Position numbers and translations under genes: made by a program. A stretch of 64,000 nucleotides of DNA from Parvibaculum sp. GTDB lineage: Bacteria; Pseudomonadota; Alphaproteobacteria; Parvibaculales; Parvibaculaceae. A model generated the notes under the pieces. The model did no database searches. It worked only from the letters and a program-made list of their open reading frames with translations, and was not told where the DNA came from. Numbering within the stretch: position 1 is the first letter of the stretch; each line of letters begins with the position of its first letter. The stretch lies in the NCBI GenBank assembly GCA_019635965.1, contig JAHBYK010000005.1:1-64000 (forward strand). Reading direction: 5' to 3'. This document shows, piece after piece, positions 6,069-61,594 of the stretch.

Positions 6069-6081
6069 AAGTGCGGGGTGA

Positions 6082-6870
6082 TCAAAGAAGCAATGAGGAC
6101 TGAGGTTCTTCGTCGATTCTAATTATGCCGACAAGTAACCACGTCTTTGGATACCGAGAGTGGGTGCCCATCGCAAATGCCATTCCTTTGCTCGGGTAGG
6201 TAACCTCAAAGGTTTCCTTCATCATGGCGAGGGCCTTGCTCTCGCCATAGAGCCGCCGAAATTTGTAAAACATCGCTGCAGTCTCCCAATCATCGCTTGT
6301 AGCCTGATGGGAACGACCATCTGAAGACTCGTAGCGAAAATTGAACGCATATGGACAGGGCTCCAGAGCCCGAAGCTCATCGTCTAAAAATGATGACTGC
6401 GCAGCCGCTGCAGCATATGCGCGTTTTTCAAAGTCCATATCTTGTAGAGATTTTTTCGTTGCCGAAAATTTGACGCGTGTCGGCCGTATTAAAGCAAGTG
6501 TCTGTCCTCGATCAGCCGCCTCATTCACAGAGGAAACAATTACACGGCTAAGAAACTTTGCTCTTTCAGCCGATCTTAGCGTCCCAGCAATTTTGATTGT
6601 GTGTTCTTGCAATCTGCGACTCTCTGGTCGCTTGTCCTTCGGGTAAGCGGTCCGCCACTGAAACTCGATCCAGTTCCACCTCTTGAACTTGTTGTCCAAA
6701 CGCCGGAACGGCACCGGAAATAACCGTCTCCACTCTCCATCAATGGTAACACCTGCACAACAGACGGTTTCGCCGTGTTCTTTACCTACGTGCGGCAGCG
6801 CCTTGACCAACACCAAGACGCGGTCTCGTCCTTCCCTTTGAAGCGTCACGCGCCAATCCCTCCGGCACAC
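6082..6870 (-). CDS. Conserved protein of unknown function, partner of DUF488
   Basis: This protein is up to 262 residues long. I do not recognise a named family, although the pairing with DUF488 looks non-accidental. Visible traits are ALPHVGKEHGETVCCAGV near the N terminus, RLFPVPFR, FKRWNWIEFQW, and a C-terminal part with C-P-Y-x-F, HQATSDDWE, Y-G-E and a final hydrophobic WLLVGIIRI. The longest start (GTG 6870) overlaps the DUF488 gene by 89 bases. TTG 6816 or GTG 6813 just before VLVK, behind AAGGGAAGG, is more natural and leaves a short overlap, which implies translational coupling. Base composition is clearly lower in GC than the flanks. Confidence 0.7.
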   Translation of the reverse strand: MCRRDWRVTLQREGRDRVLVLVKALPHVGKEHGETVCCAGVTIDGEWRRLFPVPFRRLDNKFKRWNWIEFQWRTAYPKDKRPESRRLQEHTIKIAGTLRSAERAKFLSRVIVSSVNEAADRGQTLALIRPTRVKFSATKKSLQDMDFEKRAYAAAAAQSSFLDDELRALEPCPYAFNFRYESSDGRSHQATSDDWETAAMFYKFRRLYGESKALAMMKETFEVTYPSKGMAFAMGTHSRYPKTWLLVGIIRIDEEPQSSLLL

Positions 6871-7300
6871 CCAAATGCTTTATGGAAAGATTCAGTATAT
6901 TAGAAAGATCACTGGCAACAATAGTCCTGTGGCATTCACTTGGACTACGTTCGTAACACATTAGGCAAACTTTCTGGGAATGCGCCCTATTACTCGCAAT
7001 CTCAAGTCCCGACTTGTATTCAAGTGACTTTTTATGGGCATTGAACACGCGTCGGAACTCGTCCATACGGCCAGCGCGAGCGGCCTCGCGACCCGCCTTC
7101 GGGTCGCCCAACCCCTTGATGTGGACGTATTCGATTCCAGCTTCACTAAGGCGAACGGCCAGTTTGTTCTTGGAAAAGCCTTTTCGGCGGGAAATAGGAA
7201 GTTCCCTAACATCGAGGAGAACCGCAATCTCCGCCATCTTTAGCGCTGCTACGAAGTCTTCCAAATCGGACCCCTCGTATCCAATCGTGCAGATCGTCAT
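6782..7300 (-). CDS. DUF488 family protein
   Basis: This 172-residue protein carries the family hallmarks TIGYEG at the N terminus, DVRELPISRRKGFSK, HIKGLGDPKAGRE, and the Cys-rich CLMCYERSPSECHR near residue 120. No biochemical role is firmly assigned to the family. The start ATG follows AGAGGGGG. It is the first gene of a two-gene unit with the overlapping downstream gene ending at 6082. A TTAA-N7-TTAA site lies 46 bases upstream. GC content is lower than in neighbouring genes, which suggests horizontal acquisition. Confidence 0.88.
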   Translation of the reverse strand: MTICTIGYEGSDLEDFVAALKMAEIAVLLDVRELPISRRKGFSKNKLAVRLSEAGIEYVHIKGLGDPKAGREAARAGRMDEFRRVFNAHKKSLEYKSGLEIASNRAHSQKVCLMCYERSPSECHRTIVASDLSNILNLSIKHLGVPEGLARDASKGRTRPRLGVGQGAAARR

Positions 7301-7346
7301 CTCGGCCCCCTCTGAAGCTGCAACCCGGACTATCGAGCGCGAACGG

Positions 7347-7361
7347 TTAATGCCACGTTAA
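7347..7361. promoter_or_regulatory. CtrA-type box upstream of DUF488 gene
   Basis: The site TTAATGCCACGTTAA fits TTAA-N7-TTAA exactly and is followed by CCAT, giving the extended TTAACCAT half-site described for CtrA in Caulobacter. It lies 46 bases before the DUF488 start codon. Binding by CtrA is inference. Confidence 0.55.
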
Positions 7362-7421
7362 CCATTCTGCCGCAATCGAACACTTTCCAATACCCCACAG
7401 CGCAACGCTTGCCTGGCGCTT

Positions 7422-8837
7422 TTACGGCAGGTTCGGCAGCCGCTCCGTCTGTTCCACTTCCTCGACGAAGCGTTCGTCGAGCTTGCGGCGCAGTTCCTCC
7501 TGCTCCCTGAGCCCGATGGGGAACTTCCACATGATGAGCGCGACGATCCCGTTGCAGATCATCGGCGTCGCCACAAAGACGATGGAAAGCCCGGTCAGCG
7601 TCGCCGGTGAATTTTCGCCCTGCGGGTCGAAGCCGATCAGCGCCAGCGTCCAGAACACGACGCCGACGGCAAAGGCCCCGCCGAGCTTCTGCGTCAGCGT
7701 GAGCAGCGCATAGAAAAGCCCCGTCCGCCGCTGCCCGGTTTCCAGCTCGTCGATATCGGCCACATCCGCCATGATCGAGCGGTAGAGCGTCGTTGTCGTG
7801 CCGACATTCACCCCGAGGAACAGCAGCACCAGTGCCGCGATGTAGTAGTTCCCCTCGGGAATGAGAAAGATGACGGGCGGGAAGACCACATTGAACAGCC
7901 CCGCCATCACCACCGTCATGTGCTTGCCGAAGCGGTAGGAGAGCTTCAGCACCACCGGAATGAAGATGATGCCGCCGAAGAAATAGAGCAGCAGCAGGAA
8001 ACTTGCGACCGAGCCGATTCCCCACACATAGGTCGCCTCGTAGATATACATCGAGGCAAGCGCCGCGCCCGCGAAGCCCGACAGGAAATCCGCCGCGAGC
8101 AGCCGCCGCAGCGGCACATTGCGCAGGATCGCCTTCACCGCCGCACCAAGCTGCACCGGCGGCTGCGGCTTCGCCTTGCGCTCCGGCACGAAGAGAATGT
8201 TGATGCCGACCGCGATGGGCAGCGTGATGACGATGAACCAGCCGATGGCGGCCACGCGCGCCGACTCCATGTTGTCGGCGCCGATCTGTTCGATGATCGC
8301 CGGAATCAGCAGCACCAGCGGCACGCCGAGAAGCTGGAACGCCTCGCGGTAGCCCTGGATGCGCGAGCGTTCATTGTAGTTCTCGCTCAGCTCCGCCGCC
8401 CATGCCATGTGCGAAATGGTCAGCATGGTCCAGCCGATATAGAGGAAGAACATCCAGCCGATGAGATAGAGGCTCGACACCGGCGCCGTCGGCACGAACA
8501 CCATATAGGCGCAGCCCATCAGCAGGGGCACGGAGAGCACGAGCCAGTGCCGCCGCCGGCCCCAGCGCGAGGGATACTTGTCGGACAGCACGCCCATCAT
8601 CGGATCGGTGACGACGTCCCAAAGCCGCGCCAGCATGAAGATCGTGCCGACAGCGGCAAGCCCGAGCCCCATCGGCCCCGCATAGAATTGCGGCAGATAG
8701 ACGCCGATCGGCAGCCCCAGCGCGGCGATGGGAATGGCGGGGCCTGAAAAGGCGGAAAGCCGCCAGCCGGAAAGCCGTCCGCCATTTCCCGCGGCATTGT
8801 TCGCGGAACTGTCCGAAGAAGTCATTTGTCCTGCCAT
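7422..8837 (-). CDS. GPH-family (glycoside-pentoside-hexuronide) MFS permease 1
   Basis: This 471-residue membrane protein has about 12 hydrophobic segments. The first-loop signature is ARLWDVVTDPMMGVLSDKYPSRWGRRRHW, given here in parts as WDVVTDPMMG, LSDKY and WGRRRHW. It is typical of cation:sugar symporters related to MelB and XynP and of related transporters of other small solutes. The C-terminal half starts after a short basic loop (PERKAKPQPPVQLG). It is the last gene of a minus-strand series after the hydrolase (49-base gap) and a second permease of the same family. The substrate is unknown. Confidence 0.92.
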   Translation of the reverse strand: MAGQMTSSDSSANNAAGNGGRLSGWRLSAFSGPAIPIAALGLPIGVYLPQFYAGPMGLGLAAVGTIFMLARLWDVVTDPMMGVLSDKYPSRWGRRRHWLVLSVPLLMGCAYMVFVPTAPVSSLYLIGWMFFLYIGWTMLTISHMAWAAELSENYNERSRIQGYREAFQLLGVPLVLLIPAIIEQIGADNMESARVAAIGWFIVITLPIAVGINILFVPERKAKPQPPVQLGAAVKAILRNVPLRRLLAADFLSGFAGAALASMYIYEATYVWGIGSVASFLLLLYFFGGIIFIPVVLKLSYRFGKHMTVVMAGLFNVVFPPVIFLIPEGNYYIAALVLLFLGVNVGTTTTLYRSIMADVADIDELETGQRRTGLFYALLTLTQKLGGAFAVGVVFWTLALIGFDPQGENSPATLTGLSIVFVATPMICNGIVALIMWKFPIGLREQEELRRKLDERFVEEVEQTERLPNLP

Positions 8838-11356: not shown

Positions 11357-14300
11357 TCAAATGCCGATTTCAGCTTCTGTATCCCCGGCCTTGAGCGCGT
11401 TCATCCAGGCAAGGCAGAGGTCGCGCGAGCGGAAGCTGCCATAGGCCTCCATCTCCTCCCGCTCCACGATGGGGAAAGTCGAATAGATATAGCGGATGTC
11501 GTCCCGGTCCGTGATGCCATAAAGGTTGAAATAGATCGCGTCGAGCTTCGCCCGCAGCTTCAGCCGCCGCTCCTCGTCCCATGTGAAGGGCGGCAGCACC
11601 TCGCCCTTGCCGTCCACATGGCCCATGTCCCTGGCAAAGGGCGCCATGTCATGTGCCGTATAGGTCAGCTCCAGCACTGCCTCGCGGACAAGCTCTCCGG
11701 CGGTCTTCTTGCCGAACTTCACCTTCTCATAGGTGTCAGGCGGCACGACCGGAAGCTGCTCGACAATGTACCAGTTGAGATGGGTACTTTGAGCTTTCTG
11801 CCTGACAACAAAATCGAAAATCAACGCATTTAGGTTAGAAAGCCAAAGGCCACCTTGCAGCTGGTATTCACTGACCTCCTCAGGCCAAAAAGCAGGAGCT
11901 GTGTTCCCAAGTCCGACTTTCGGGACAGCTGAAGCTATCATCGTCCTTGCGTCGGTCGCTCTCGCAATATCGCGAAAACAGATCACCCAATGGAGCTTGG
12001 GCGGATACTCGACGTGCTCCCCAGCTATCCAAAATTGAGGTGTCGGACTGAAGATGGTGTCGCGTTTCTGTTCCTCTGAAACGCTGTCGCTCAACGCCGC
12101 ATTGTGAAGGTTCTCTTCATTCACAACAACCGATGCCGCGCGATGGTCAAACTGATGGATCATTCGCCCAACATAGAGCGGCAGCCACTCGCCCTTCTTG
12201 CTTTTCCAGCGATTGCCGCCTGCCGGCCACGCGCCTTCCTTTTCCTCAAGCTCCTGCCTCGTGCGGAACAGGCCGGAATCGTTGGTCATATCGAACATGC
12301 GCACATATCGCACAGGCCATGTTTTCCGCTCCTCCCCGCCCGAGCGGTCCACCAGCACAGGCAGGCGGCCATAGATCGCCGTCGTCAGCGCCGCATCGCG
12401 CCTTGTACGGAAGATCGGCGCCGTGCCGGTGTTCGGATTGACGCGCGCGAAGTCCGCCGCCGTCACCGGAAAGCATCTTTCCGGGTCGCCAAGCTCGGAT
12501 ACATGATGCACGTAGAAAGCGCATATCGCCTTGTCGAACGGACGCGCAGGGCTCACGACCATAACGCAGAATTTGAAAGATGCATGAACGTCAGGGAAAA
12601 AGACTTTCTTGTTTTCAAAGTCGTAAAGCGCCTTCAGCCGTCCGCCGGTCGCCACACCTTTGAAGAAAGCGGATGCCGTCTTGTCGGATGCAATGCCCGA
12701 AGGCGTCAGCAGGCCAACCACGCCCTTGGGCTTCACAAGAGCAAGCGCCCGCTCAACAAACAGCGAATAGAGATTGACGTCGCCGCCGGACAGCAGCGGA
12801 TAGTCGCCGCCGTCGCGCGCCACGCGGGCGCCCGCCTCGGCCCGCGCGCTCGCCTTCTCATAGTCCGCCGCCAGCGGGTCCTTCGCCTTTTCGAGCTTCT
12901 TTATCATCTTCTTGCGGTCGTCCGCGCGCTGCGCCAGCGCGATTTCGCGCCGCCGCACGGCAAACCATTCGACCTCTTGCAGCTTCATCCGGTCCCAGGG
13001 CGGATTGCCGATCACCGCATCGAAACCGCCCTTGCGCTCGCCGCTCTCCCAGTCGGACCAGACGCCCGGAAAGGCGACCTGCCAGTTGAGGAACCGCTCC
13101 TCCTCGATCAGTTCGCGCGCCTTTGAGCAAATCTCGCTGAAGCGCGTGGCGATTTCATGGGGGCTGTAGCTTTTCTTCTTCTGCTTGGCCTGTTTGGCCT
13201 TCTCGATCTCGGAAAGAGGCGGAGGTGCAGGCGGAATGACGATCTTCTTCCGCCCCGTGGCCACGGCCACGACATCGCCGAACCCTTCCTTCAGCCATTC
13301 CTGAATGGCTGCCATGTCGGCCTTGTCCTTGATCCCGAGCCACTCGATCGCATGAACCATCGACAGCAGCGTATCGAGTGGGCGCGTCACCTCGACGATC
13401 CCCTCGAAAATATCGGCGGAGCGATGTGCTTCCGCGATTTCCGCATCCGTCAGCCCCTCGATGGTCTGCATGGACGCCGCCGCGGTTCGCGCCTTCGTGA
13501 GTGTACCGTGAAGAAGAAGCCCGCTGCCCCAGTCGGCAAGCTTGTCCATTGCCGGACGGACCCACGATCCGAACAATGAATCGCCGCAGCGCAGATGATG
13601 GTCGAGGAAGGAGAGCGGCGCGCCTACGGTGAACGTGTGAAGCCAGAGCGAGACTTTTGCGAGTTCCACCGCCATCTGGTTCTTGTCCACGCCATAGACG
13701 CAGCGTTTCAGAACCATCCGGCGAACGATATGCCTGTCGTCGAGCTGCGCCGCGTCGACGGTCCAGCCCTTCTCCTCCGCATTGTGAAGGATCGTCTGTC
13801 GAATCTTTTCGATGCGCTCGCCAAGCGGCGAAATATAGGGCATGTCGTCCGCCGCCCATTCGACGGCGGTTTCCGCTTCCGCCATGGCCGCAATCACATT
13901 GTCGGTCAGATAGTCGACCAGCGACACGAGGAAGTGCCCCGATCCCATCGCAGGATCGCATATACGCAGTTCGAGCAGCTTCTCCGCCGGATCGATCTGT
14001 TTCAATGCGCCAAGCCGGTATTCGGCTGGCCGCTTGTCCTTCGCCAGTTCCGCGGCCTTGCCGCGAAACGCATCCATCCTTTCGTCGATGAGCGGCTGCA
14101 AGGTCTCGTTGATAATCAGGCGAACGAGATCGTCCGGCGTGTAGTAGCTGCCCGAACCCTTGCGCGCGAAGATGTTGGGCCGGATGGTGATCTCATCCCC
14201 TTCCCTGCGAACTTCATGTTCCAGCAGCCGCTCATAGATCGAGCCAAGCTGCTGCACACTCAAATCGCGATAGTTGATGTATTTACGGCCATCTTTCGTC

Positions 14301-15517
14301 TGCTCGAAGGAAAGCCGGTCGATGACATCCGCCATCACATCGTCGGGAATGCGCACCTTCTCGAGCAGCGGTGTACGCAGCGCATCGAAGAGCCCGCCAT
14401 TATAGGGGGGCAGACCGATCGAGGCGTCGCCCTTGTCGATCGCGCGGGACAGATCCTGAATGGCGCCCCAGTAGCGTGATGCCGATGTCGAGAAAACATC
14501 CCCCTTGTCCTTCCGCCGTCCGACATCGCCGCGTACGCGCTCTCGCAGGCCGTAATCGTCATAGCGGCTTTCGCGGACCGGCAGCAGGTCGCGGTCTTCC
14601 GCATAGAGAAGGAAAAGCAGCCGATAAAGCAGAACCAGAGCCGCGTTCCGGACTTCATCGAGCGGTGCTGAAGGCTCCGATTTCGCGATAGCCCGGACAA
14701 GCTCGGGGAACACCTGCTCGAATACGAGCGAGGACAGGCTTTCCGCCACCCGCTGTTCGTAAAAACGGCCTTCATCGATCGCGCGCTGATGGAAGCTGCG
14801 CTTGTCCGATGGCCTTGGAACAAACGATTCCCTGCCGAAAACCAGCATGAAGACGCGCAGGGCATGGCGCTTCTCATCCTCGTCCAGCGAGAACAGCCCA
14901 TCGCCGATACCATCGAGACCGAGAACGGCGGCAAGGTCGATTTCGAAGAACTGCTCGGAAACGGAGCGGGCGCCCTGATAATAGAGACGCCATGTCGCGC
15001 CATTGGTCAGGATGCCCCAGCGGAGCCCGCCGGTCGTTAGGTCGTCGACACGTCGCAGATAGCGGAGCATCTGCGTCGAAGGTGCAAGCTCCTCTCCGAG
15101 CTTGCCAGAACGCCTGTCGAGCGGGCGCCGCCAGCGTTTCGACTCCACCAGCGCCAGCCCGTGCTCGTACCTCTTCCATTGTTCAGGGTGGGCATTCGCC
15201 CTTTCCTTGGCACTGTCATCCTCGAAGAGAATGCCGTCGGGCACGTCGTCCCTGCCCTTTGCCGCAAGATTCTGCTGCCGTAGCGTTGCGGTCCATCCGA
15301 GCCGTTTTAGAACGGGCCAGATCAGGTCGTCTTCGGTCTGGCTTTCGTTTGTCGCCTTGTCCTGGGGGAAGCGGGAAAATATGGCATCAATATCCGCCCG
15401 AAAGGCGTCCACCTCAGTGCCGCTGATGGCATTCCATTCAGGCAAGGTGCGGATCGCTTCGCCCAGAAAATCGAGCGAAAACAGACTGCCCCTGAATACT
15501 ATTCCCTTATCGGCCAC
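11357..15517 (-). CDS. Single-chain restriction-modification enzyme (type IIG-like, N6-adenine methylase)
   Basis: This protein of about 1386 residues has an N-terminal nuclease-like part: DVPDGILFEDD followed by LALVESKRW near residue 123, a plausible PD-(D/E)xK site. The methylase core has motif I ICDPAMGSGHFLV near residue 514 and motif IV GNPPWDRM near residue 835, typical of N6-adenine methylases of the Eco57I/PglX type. The C-terminal part, presumed to recognise DNA, has lower GC in places (about 11760-12140 and 12500-12700). The GTG start at 15517 has AGGGGAAGG just upstream; a TTG at 15538 is the alternative. No separate specificity subunit or BREX genes flank it. Confidence 0.85.
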   Translation of the reverse strand: MADKGIVFRGSLFSLDFLGEAIRTLPEWNAISGTEVDAFRADIDAIFSRFPQDKATNESQTEDDLIWPVLKRLGWTATLRQQNLAAKGRDDVPDGILFEDDSAKERANAHPEQWKRYEHGLALVESKRWRRPLDRRSGKLGEELAPSTQMLRYLRRVDDLTTGGLRWGILTNGATWRLYYQGARSVSEQFFEIDLAAVLGLDGIGDGLFSLDEDEKRHALRVFMLVFGRESFVPRPSDKRSFHQRAIDEGRFYEQRVAESLSSLVFEQVFPELVRAIAKSEPSAPLDEVRNAALVLLYRLLFLLYAEDRDLLPVRESRYDDYGLRERVRGDVGRRKDKGDVFSTSASRYWGAIQDLSRAIDKGDASIGLPPYNGGLFDALRTPLLEKVRIPDDVMADVIDRLSFEQTKDGRKYINYRDLSVQQLGSIYERLLEHEVRREGDEITIRPNIFARKGSGSYYTPDDLVRLIINETLQPLIDERMDAFRGKAAELAKDKRPAEYRLGALKQIDPAEKLLELRICDPAMGSGHFLVSLVDYLTDNVIAAMAEAETAVEWAADDMPYISPLGERIEKIRQTILHNAEEKGWTVDAAQLDDRHIVRRMVLKRCVYGVDKNQMAVELAKVSLWLHTFTVGAPLSFLDHHLRCGDSLFGSWVRPAMDKLADWGSGLLLHGTLTKARTAAASMQTIEGLTDAEIAEAHRSADIFEGIVEVTRPLDTLLSMVHAIEWLGIKDKADMAAIQEWLKEGFGDVVAVATGRKKIVIPPAPPPLSEIEKAKQAKQKKKSYSPHEIATRFSEICSKARELIEEERFLNWQVAFPGVWSDWESGERKGGFDAVIGNPPWDRMKLQEVEWFAVRRREIALAQRADDRKKMIKKLEKAKDPLAADYEKASARAEAGARVARDGGDYPLLSGGDVNLYSLFVERALALVKPKGVVGLLTPSGIASDKTASAFFKGVATGGRLKALYDFENKKVFFPDVHASFKFCVMVVSPARPFDKAICAFYVHHVSELGDPERCFPVTAADFARVNPNTGTAPIFRTRRDAALTTAIYGRLPVLVDRSGGEERKTWPVRYVRMFDMTNDSGLFRTRQELEEKEGAWPAGGNRWKSKKGEWLPLYVGRMIHQFDHRAASVVVNEENLHNAALSDSVSEEQKRDTIFSPTPQFWIAGEHVEYPPKLHWVICFRDIARATDARTMIASAVPKVGLGNTAPAFWPEEVSEYQLQGGLWLSNLNALIFDFVVRQKAQSTHLNWYIVEQLPVVPPDTYEKVKFGKKTAGELVREAVLELTYTAHDMAPFARDMGHVDGKGEVLPPFTWDEERRLKLRAKLDAIYFNLYGITDRDDIRYIYSTFPIVEREEMEAYGSFRSRDLCLAWMNALKAGDTEAEIGI

Positions 15518-15971
15518 GCCTTCCCCTTCGAATCGCAATTTTCAGCCCTCCAAACTAGCCAGTCGGGACACCCAATGCATCCCTTCGGCAGGCTGGTTCG
15601 ATTCCGACCCAAAAAACCGGGGATAAGTTTTTTTCGTCTCTCTGCGGCTCTGCGCCTCTGCGTGCCCTTCCTGCATCGCGCGAATGACGCGCCGGACGGG
15701 GCGGGTGCCATGCGGCCAATCGATCAGCCTACGGATGATATGAAGTCCACGCCTGAGCGGGGCATGCCGGAGGCGGCGCGCGGGCCTCATGACAGAATGA
15801 TGACATTCCGGTGACAGAATTTCGGGCCGGAGGCCGCTCCCAATGAAATCAAGGGCTTGGCACCCGGCGCACTCGTAACGGTACCGGAACGGATTTGCCG
15901 CCGCGCCCCCTTGCCCTTGAGCGCCCGCCCCTCTAGTTTCGCCCCATCCCCGGAGCGATGGAGTTGTGAAT
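15518..15971. other. Intergenic region without a convincing gene
   Basis: This 454-base stretch lies between the divergent restriction-modification and zinc-finger genes. It holds a pyrimidine-rich tract around 15628-15665 with repeated CTCTGCG units. The 9-base direct repeat TGACAGAAT occurs near 15789 and 15811, with a TGACATTCC between. No open frame here has family features or a good ribosome site. It presumably contains the promoters of both flanking genes. Confidence 0.6.
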
Positions 15972-16288: not shown

Positions 16289-16375
16289 TGGTGGCCCCTG
16301 CGGGACTCGAACCCGCACTCCCTTGCAGGAAGCGGATTTTAAGTCCGCTGCGTATACCAGTTTCGCCAAGGGGCC
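16289..16375 (-). tRNA. tRNA-Leu (anticodon UAA)
   Basis: On the minus strand the gene reads GGCCCCTTGGCG at its 5' end. The anticodon arm is GCGGA-CTTAAAA-TCCGC, with anticodon TAA. A variable arm CTTCCTGCAAGGGAG follows, then a T arm GCGGG-TTCGAGT-CCCGC and acceptor strand AGGGGCC-A-CCA. The acceptor 5' GGCCCCT pairs with 3' AGGGGCC, and the CCA end is encoded. The extended variable arm fits a class II leucine tRNA. Confidence 0.97.
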
Positions 16376-49108: not shown

Positions 49109-49123
49109 TTAACCCGGCATTAA
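49109..49123. promoter_or_regulatory. CtrA-type box upstream of fliO
   Basis: TTAACCCGGCATTAA fits TTAA-N7-TTAA exactly and lies 70 bases before the fliO start. Confidence 0.65.
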
Positions 49124-53902: not shown

Positions 53903-53917
53903 TTAAGTGGGCCTTAA
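53903..53917. promoter_or_regulatory. CtrA-type box upstream of the TPR protein gene
   Basis: TTAAGTGGGCCTTAA fits TTAA-N7-TTAA exactly and lies 78 bases before the start of the 1146-residue protein. Confidence 0.55.
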
Positions 53918-61579: not shown

Positions 61580-61594
61580 TTAATGCCCCGTTAA
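61580..61594. promoter_or_regulatory. CtrA-type box upstream of fliX
   Basis: TTAATGCCCCGTTAA fits TTAA-N7-TTAA exactly and lies 62 bases before the fliX start. Caulobacter fliX is a CtrA-controlled gene. Confidence 0.7.

Follow-up and report, generated by a model that had tools for sequence, protein, structure and literature searches.

A perfect CtrA-type box stands just upstream of a two-gene unit in a 64,000-nucleotide (nt) stretch of Parvibaculum sp. DNA (GenBank assembly GCA_019635965.1, contig JAHBYK010000005.1, positions 1 to 64,000; hereafter the window). In Alphaproteobacteria, CtrA is a master regulator that governs both cell cycle and motility. We consider it probable, at about 0.73, that the box works as a CtrA site in the promoter of PDC-M19, a mobile pair of candidate anti-phage genes that would have been placed under CtrA repeatedly. 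The first-pass annotation of the window had guessed that an acquired unit with a DUF488 gene had come under cell-cycle control; judged from sequence comparison, that guess holds and is larger than stated: in Alphaproteobacteria at large, a CtrA-type site frequently stands in front of the candidate defence pair. The features concerned are listed here.

6069..7423, no strand: insert of 1.35 kb that carries the box together with genes A and B; an M20 peptidase gene and an MFS gene flank it with their 3' ends
6082..6870, minus strand: gene B, 262 amino acids, GTG start, overlapping gene A, PADLOC PDC-M19B (PADLOC profile; OB-fold-like by model)
6782..7300, minus strand: gene A, DUF488 protein of 172 amino acids, PADLOC PDC-M19A (Pfam and PADLOC profiles)
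7306..7313, minus strand: Shine-Dalgarno-like AGAGGGGG preceding the DUF488 ATG, read from the sequence
7329..7334, minus strand: weak -10-like hexamer GATAGT, which matches TATAAT at 4/6 positions, 10 nt downstream of the box
7345..7363, minus strand: CtrA-type box, GGTTAACGTGGCATTAACC on the gene strand and TTAA-N7-TTAACCAT (7347-7365) on the plus strand, recurring before orthologues

The core of the box, TTAATGCCACGTTAA, occupies positions 7347-7361, with 46 bases between it and the DUF488 ATG (7298-7300, minus strand). On the plus strand positions 7347-7365 read TTAATGCCACGTTAACCAT, with TTAA-N7-TTAA as the core, and the full palindrome GGTTAA-N7-TTAACC spans 7345-7363; the CAT extension is directed away from the DUF488 gene. 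The box is real and, as had been claimed, the best match to the CtrA consensus in the window, where it is the sole zero-mismatch match to TTAAN6GTTAAC. The longer pattern TTAAN7TTAACCAT has two matches in the 2.48-Mb assembly, one of which is the box. The core TTAAN7TTAA occurs four times in the window, where shuffles average 0.00, and the assembly holds 17 copies of it versus 6 of the reversed control pattern. Three more perfect cores lie in the flagellar region of the window (49109-49123, 53903-53917 and 61580-61594), and sites spaced similarly to these are found in the congeners G006, G013 and G016.

The main evidence comes from the 100 nt before the start of gene A in relatives of the unit. 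A profile of eight aligned B proteins was run against 84,980 species genomes, and the best 80 of 173 relatives, nearly all from Alphaproteobacteria, were pooled with eight loci found earlier and the window itself to give a first set of 89, in 87 of which gene A was located. These upstreams fell into 65 clusters at an ungapped 60-mer identity of at least 65%; gapped identity had merged all 87 into one. The second set comprised 37 loci from a scan of viral contigs and a few from a phylum search. The pooled set holds 121 upstreams in 73 clusters with an alphaproteobacterial or unknown host, 11 loci having been set aside as non-alphaproteobacterial (L086, L102, L143, L155-L158, L161, L162, L166 and L197) and three dropped for lack of a found gene A (L078, L109 and L202). 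L086, L102 and L143 are still counted in the 65-cluster k-mer and control analyses. Retained among the 73 clusters are some loci with unclear hosts (viral contigs, together with L105 and L127, titled Gammaproteobacteria and Exiguobacterium, respectively), which group with alphaproteobacterial upstreams.

When all k-mers in the 65 clusters were ranked de novo against shuffles, the highest at each length were TTAAC among 5-mers (25, 8.30 expected), GTTAAC and then TTAACC among 6-mers (15, 1.10 expected; 18, 2.34 expected), GTTAACC among 7-mers (12, 0.46 expected) and GTTAACCA and TTAACCAT among 8-mers (11 and 8, each 0.14 expected). The z-score of GTTAACCA is 24.3, and the highest for any 8-mer over 100 shuffled sets is 10.0. 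Upstreams of other open reading frames (ORFs) at the same loci hold GTTAAC in 0/145, TTAACC in 1/145 and TTAAN7TTAA in 0/145 cases, and their GC-matched subset in 0/92, 1/92 and 0/92, respectively. Among six alphaproteobacterial DUF488 genes outside M19 (L017-L022), TTAAC is found in 0/6 of the 100-nt upstreams.

The sites are also confined in position. In the pooled set, gene-directed TTAACC lies 35-65 nt before the start in 16 of 73 clusters (0.37 expected) and TTAAC in 22 (1.67 expected), while TTAAN7TTAA occurs anywhere in the 100 nt in six (0.11 expected); none of 2000 shuffles reaches any of these counts. Eleven clusters consist solely of loci from the later searches, and four of them have the site (0.23 expected; 0/2000 shuffles). 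All 17 forward TTAACC within 110 nt of the start fall at 30-70 nt, and GGTTAA is found six times. Thus, in the comparison of orthologue upstreams that the first-pass annotation had suggested, CtrA-type sites recur in position, orientation and spacing, but in a minority of clusters (TTAAC in 22/73). That annotation had also allowed for a chance AT-rich match; as the main reading this is rejected by the enrichment of sites in the orthologue upstreams, as seen in the k-mer, control-ORF and position counts.

A narrower form of the same idea is that the box of the window itself arose by chance, although the motif may work in further lineages of the module. The two nearest relatives of its module (L080 and L085) are without the box, and TTAAN7TTAA appears in 84 of 5000 dinucleotide shuffles of the whole insert. 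Shuffling of the 123-nt upstream (7301-7423) gives it in only 7 of 5000, the box is perfect and full, and its forward TTAACC half stands 50 nt before the start of gene A, which is the position seen in the orthologues. We regard this explanation as improbable.

That the regulator is CtrA is strongly suggested by the form of the sites. Upstream of the 22 TTAAC sites a partner TTAA, with three or more of its four letters matching, stands at a spacer of 7 in eight cases and of 8 in seven, whereas each of the remaining spacers between 2 and 15 has 0-2; four of the partners at spacer 7 are perfect. The averaged orthologue site is [TG][TA]AA-N6-G-TTAACCAT. The Caulobacter CtrA consensus is given in the CtrA passages of PMC11264516 as TTAA-N7-TTAA, usually a single site at -35, and those of PMC4287350 count 52 full motifs and 107 half-motif activators among Caulobacter CtrA promoters. 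The genome encodes CtrA in a complete ORF of 235 amino acids (L204), which has 95% identity over 64 amino acids to a CtrA query fragment. Perfect boxes in the genome adjoin FlgB/FliP, FlgH/FlgI, a SPOR protein, a PilZ protein, a transglycosylase, an ABC ATPase and histidine kinases, and also metabolic genes, the adjoining genes having been chosen by ORF length with no gene caller. Flagellar, envelope and signalling genes are CtrA-type functions.

Another regulator with an overlapping motif, such as SciP, a phage or host repressor or an unnamed factor, could bind TTAACC(AT) in place of CtrA as the main actor. Half-sites predominate among the orthologue sites, several modules are located in prophages, and the SciP motif from chromatin immunoprecipitation sequencing is given in part of PMC4287350 as TTAACAT, which overlaps the element. 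On the other hand, the SciP half-motif in the same part of that paper is GCGAC, and the partner half at CtrA spacing, together with the six full TTAA-N7-TTAA in 73 clusters, matches the CtrA consensus as worded in PMC11264516. We therefore hold control by such a factor to be unlikely, if the strongest of the competing explanations.

The surroundings of the box bear on its place in a promoter. Were GATAGT a -10 element, the box would have its 5' base some 39-40 nt ahead of the transcription start; in the part of PMC4287350 that describes ctrA P2, the full motif begins at -39. The element could instead belong to a conventional sigma-70 promoter as its -35-like part, with TTAACC as a variant of TTGACA. 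TTGACA itself occurs in 8 of 73 clusters (2.12 expected); Acetobacteraceae-type modules without the box account for several of these, and some module lineages seem to use TTGACA instead of the box. A -35 element needs neither a partner TTAA 7-8 nt upstream nor a CAT extension, and neither a -10 peak at the proper distance among the orthologues nor a promoter in a scan of the window was found, which makes a plain sigma-70 element a poor candidate.

GANTC is the CcrM methylation motif. As a possible CcrM/GcrA signal it is present in 34 of 73 clusters versus 25.3 expected, a count that 38 of 2000 shuffles reach and that is too weak to claim. A conserved GATTC with an upstream GANTC-like site (for example GAATCAGGGGATTC) was seen in several members of one cluster (L105/L112/L120/L122/L123/L127/L128/L130/L140/L144/L153).

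Several observations weigh against a working CtrA site. As to the motif, perfect cores across 27 genomes of the genus number 464 versus 385 reversed controls in the summed table; the core is only slightly commoner than the control, so that a perfect core alone is weak evidence, and the case for the box is carried by the orthologue comparison. In that comparison, 51 of 73 clusters are without TTAAC at 35-65 nt, many of the sites are half-sites, and the nearest relatives of the window module lack the box, as do, for TTAAC, two alphaproteobacterial plasmid modules (L208 and L209) that were fetched after the counts and stand outside the 73 clusters. The 35-65 nt window was picked after inspection of the first 56 upstreams; the k-mer and full-box counts are independent of it. 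As to the promoter, the scan of the window returned no sigma-70 promoter, and the 22 orthologue TTAAC sites share no common -10 at any offset. The non-alphaproteobacterial control is small and weak, and L143, one of its 11 loci, has TTAAC in the 35-65 nt window; L171/L172, kept in the 73-cluster set, look like Nitrosospira modules. L155-L158 and L161 probably belong to Magnetococcia, to judge from the identity of L155 with L086 (Magnetococcales) and from the order and class of G494, which yield one and the same set of 48 genomes; these five loci are thus no clean CtrA-free control.

A tree built from 83 A proteins puts the window module together with L080 and L085 (98/90). The box label needs 16 changes on this tree for TTAAC or 12 for TTAACC, indicating that gains and losses are frequent. 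Repeated recruitment into CtrA control is favoured; the pattern may also stem from the loss of an ancestral site. The modules themselves are mobile in character: relatives of B occur on plasmids, modules are also found within prophages, and in the viral contigs whose neighbours were viewed, genes for a ParB-like DNA methyltransferase or for terminase adjoin the pair. In L170, L177, L178, L187, L188 and L193 the M19 pair seems to sit in a cargo slot near ParB-like methyltransferase and terminase genes. The box is present in 5 of 11 clusters with phage-type neighbours; as a trait of prophages only it is ruled out by the 17 of 62 clusters that carry the site with no recognised phage neighbours.

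The unit in the window was acquired, as had been supposed. It is missing from the site in all 18 congener loci that show both the MFS and the M20 peptidase gene, and the GC content of the insert is 0.513 (51%) against 0.655 and 0.634 for its neighbours and 0.618 (62%) for the window. The gap between the flank matches in those 18 loci leaves no room for the pair: it is 10-56 bp in 11, 113-116 bp in two and 225-466 bp of other sequence in five, and in L024, L025, L026, L030, L032 and L035 the flank matches are 10-28 bp apart. The MFS gene has relatives in all 27 genus genomes searched. In the first relatives search, 6 of 41 genomes, the window's own counted, had a relative of A, with at most 47% identity outside that genome. 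An ancestral intergenic box predating the insert was considered and rejected, the box lying inside the insert and TTAAN7TTAA being found in 0/20 congener loci around the MFS gene. Other small genes or sequences occupy the same intergenic site, close to where the MFS gene ends, in L027, L028, L029, L031, L033 and L036, and the site seems insertion-prone.

The first-pass annotation had called the acquired genes an uncharacterised two-gene unit. The two-gene unit stands; wholly uncharacterised it is not, since the genes match the PADLOC candidate pair PDC-M19. Gene A matches Pfam PF04343 (DUF488) with an E-value of 5.6e-29 (101.7 bits, gathering cut-off 22.2) and, with its C-terminal part only, the profiles PDLC04505 (E 4.7e-32, positions 150-293 of 294) and PDLC04504 (positions 91-233 of 234). 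Gene B matches PDLC04508 over nearly the whole profile (E 3.2e-38) and has no Pfam match even at an E-value of 10. As A and B are adjacent, overlap and both match PADLOC M19 models, we identify them on profile evidence as the candidate defence pair PDC-M19, with an anti-phage role as a candidate function only.

The structures predicted for A and B have pLDDT values of 93.2 and 92.6, respectively. DUF488 is a family that we take to belong to the rhodanese-phosphatase superfamily. The neighbours of the A model include the laforin phosphatase domain (Z 8.6) and SsoPTP (Z 8.5), with methyltransferases tied at Z 8.2-9.5; dual-specificity phosphatases and methyltransferases being equally similar, the fold of A is left without assignment. 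A structure search with the A model gave no clear relative, and sequence searches of the PDB with the A or B profile gave none. Residues invariant across 54 A sequences include D30, R32, C115, E117, C123, H124 and R125, which would fit an enzyme. In B, residues 9-123 of the model resemble RecO, Rim1/SSB and telomere-end proteins (Z 8.0-8.6 in the best rows; best Foldseek E-value 2.1e-4, TM 0.26), so that B appears OB-fold-like and resembles single-strand-binding proteins over this region.

We propose that phosphorylated CtrA most likely binds TTAA-N7-TTAA just upstream of the pair and would set its transcription by cell-cycle stage or motility state, alongside flagellar and envelope genes with the same box. 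The two genes would be co-transcribed, from A to B, with CtrA as an activator rather than a repressor. The pair would be made mainly in the predivisional or swarmer stage; CtrA is then active, and the cell builds the appendages that serve phages as receptors. B would recognise nucleic acid, A would be an enzyme, and the pair would act against phages. Flagella and pili are the entry points of many alphaproteobacterial phages. More tentatively, at somewhat less than even odds, the mobile pair may have been recruited repeatedly into the CtrA regulon, on chromosomes and in prophages, as cell-cycle-timed immunity that is armed in the cell type displaying flagella and pili.

Defence systems are usually viewed as constitutive, infection-induced or self-regulated. 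If the proposal is true, and the cassette takes the cell-cycle switch of its host along from one genome to the next, immunity could differ between the two daughter cells of asymmetrically dividing bacteria. The module would exploit for defence the very clock that certain phages are known to read, and would be their counterpart. Such phages, as described in parts of PMC9437464, carry CtrA sites for which binding and regulation were shown, with "lytic deferment" as the term used. The present case is like theirs in that a mobile element would read the host CtrA, with independent origins in several lineages; it differs in that theirs are genes of pili- and flagellotropic phages, whereas the present element is a candidate defence pair, found on chromosomes and within prophages. 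The Caulobacter CtrA promoters in the cited part of PMC4287350 are like the sites described here in consensus, spacing, full and half forms and location shortly upstream; unlike them, the present box precedes an acquired candidate defence pair. In the literature searched, with subscription papers mostly outside its scope, we found neither a CtrA-controlled defence system nor a publication naming PDC-M19, and in the CtrA passages of PMC13236601 CtrA is mentioned solely in the reference list. The box is thus a first regulatory clue for a little-studied pair; it allows direct experiments in standard laboratory strains and offers a general search rule, CtrA boxes before other defence islands of Alphaproteobacteria.

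The pair described here has the same M19A and M19B matches and adjacent overlapping genes as PDC-M19 in PADLOC-DB 2.0.0. A and B are co-directional in the window, whereas they are convergent in three annotated versions on beta- and gammaproteobacterial plasmids (L211-L213). Convergent order is seen throughout the distant M19 pairs on beta-/gammaproteobacterial, Rhizobium and Streptomyces plasmids (L211-L215). A gene on the minus strand (11357-15538), some 4 kb away from the M19 pair, encodes a 1393-amino-acid protein that matches the PADLOC type IIG restriction-methyltransferase and DrmMI models, and the two possibly form a small defence neighbourhood. A tRNA-Leu gene (16289-16375) lies near the gene for this protein.
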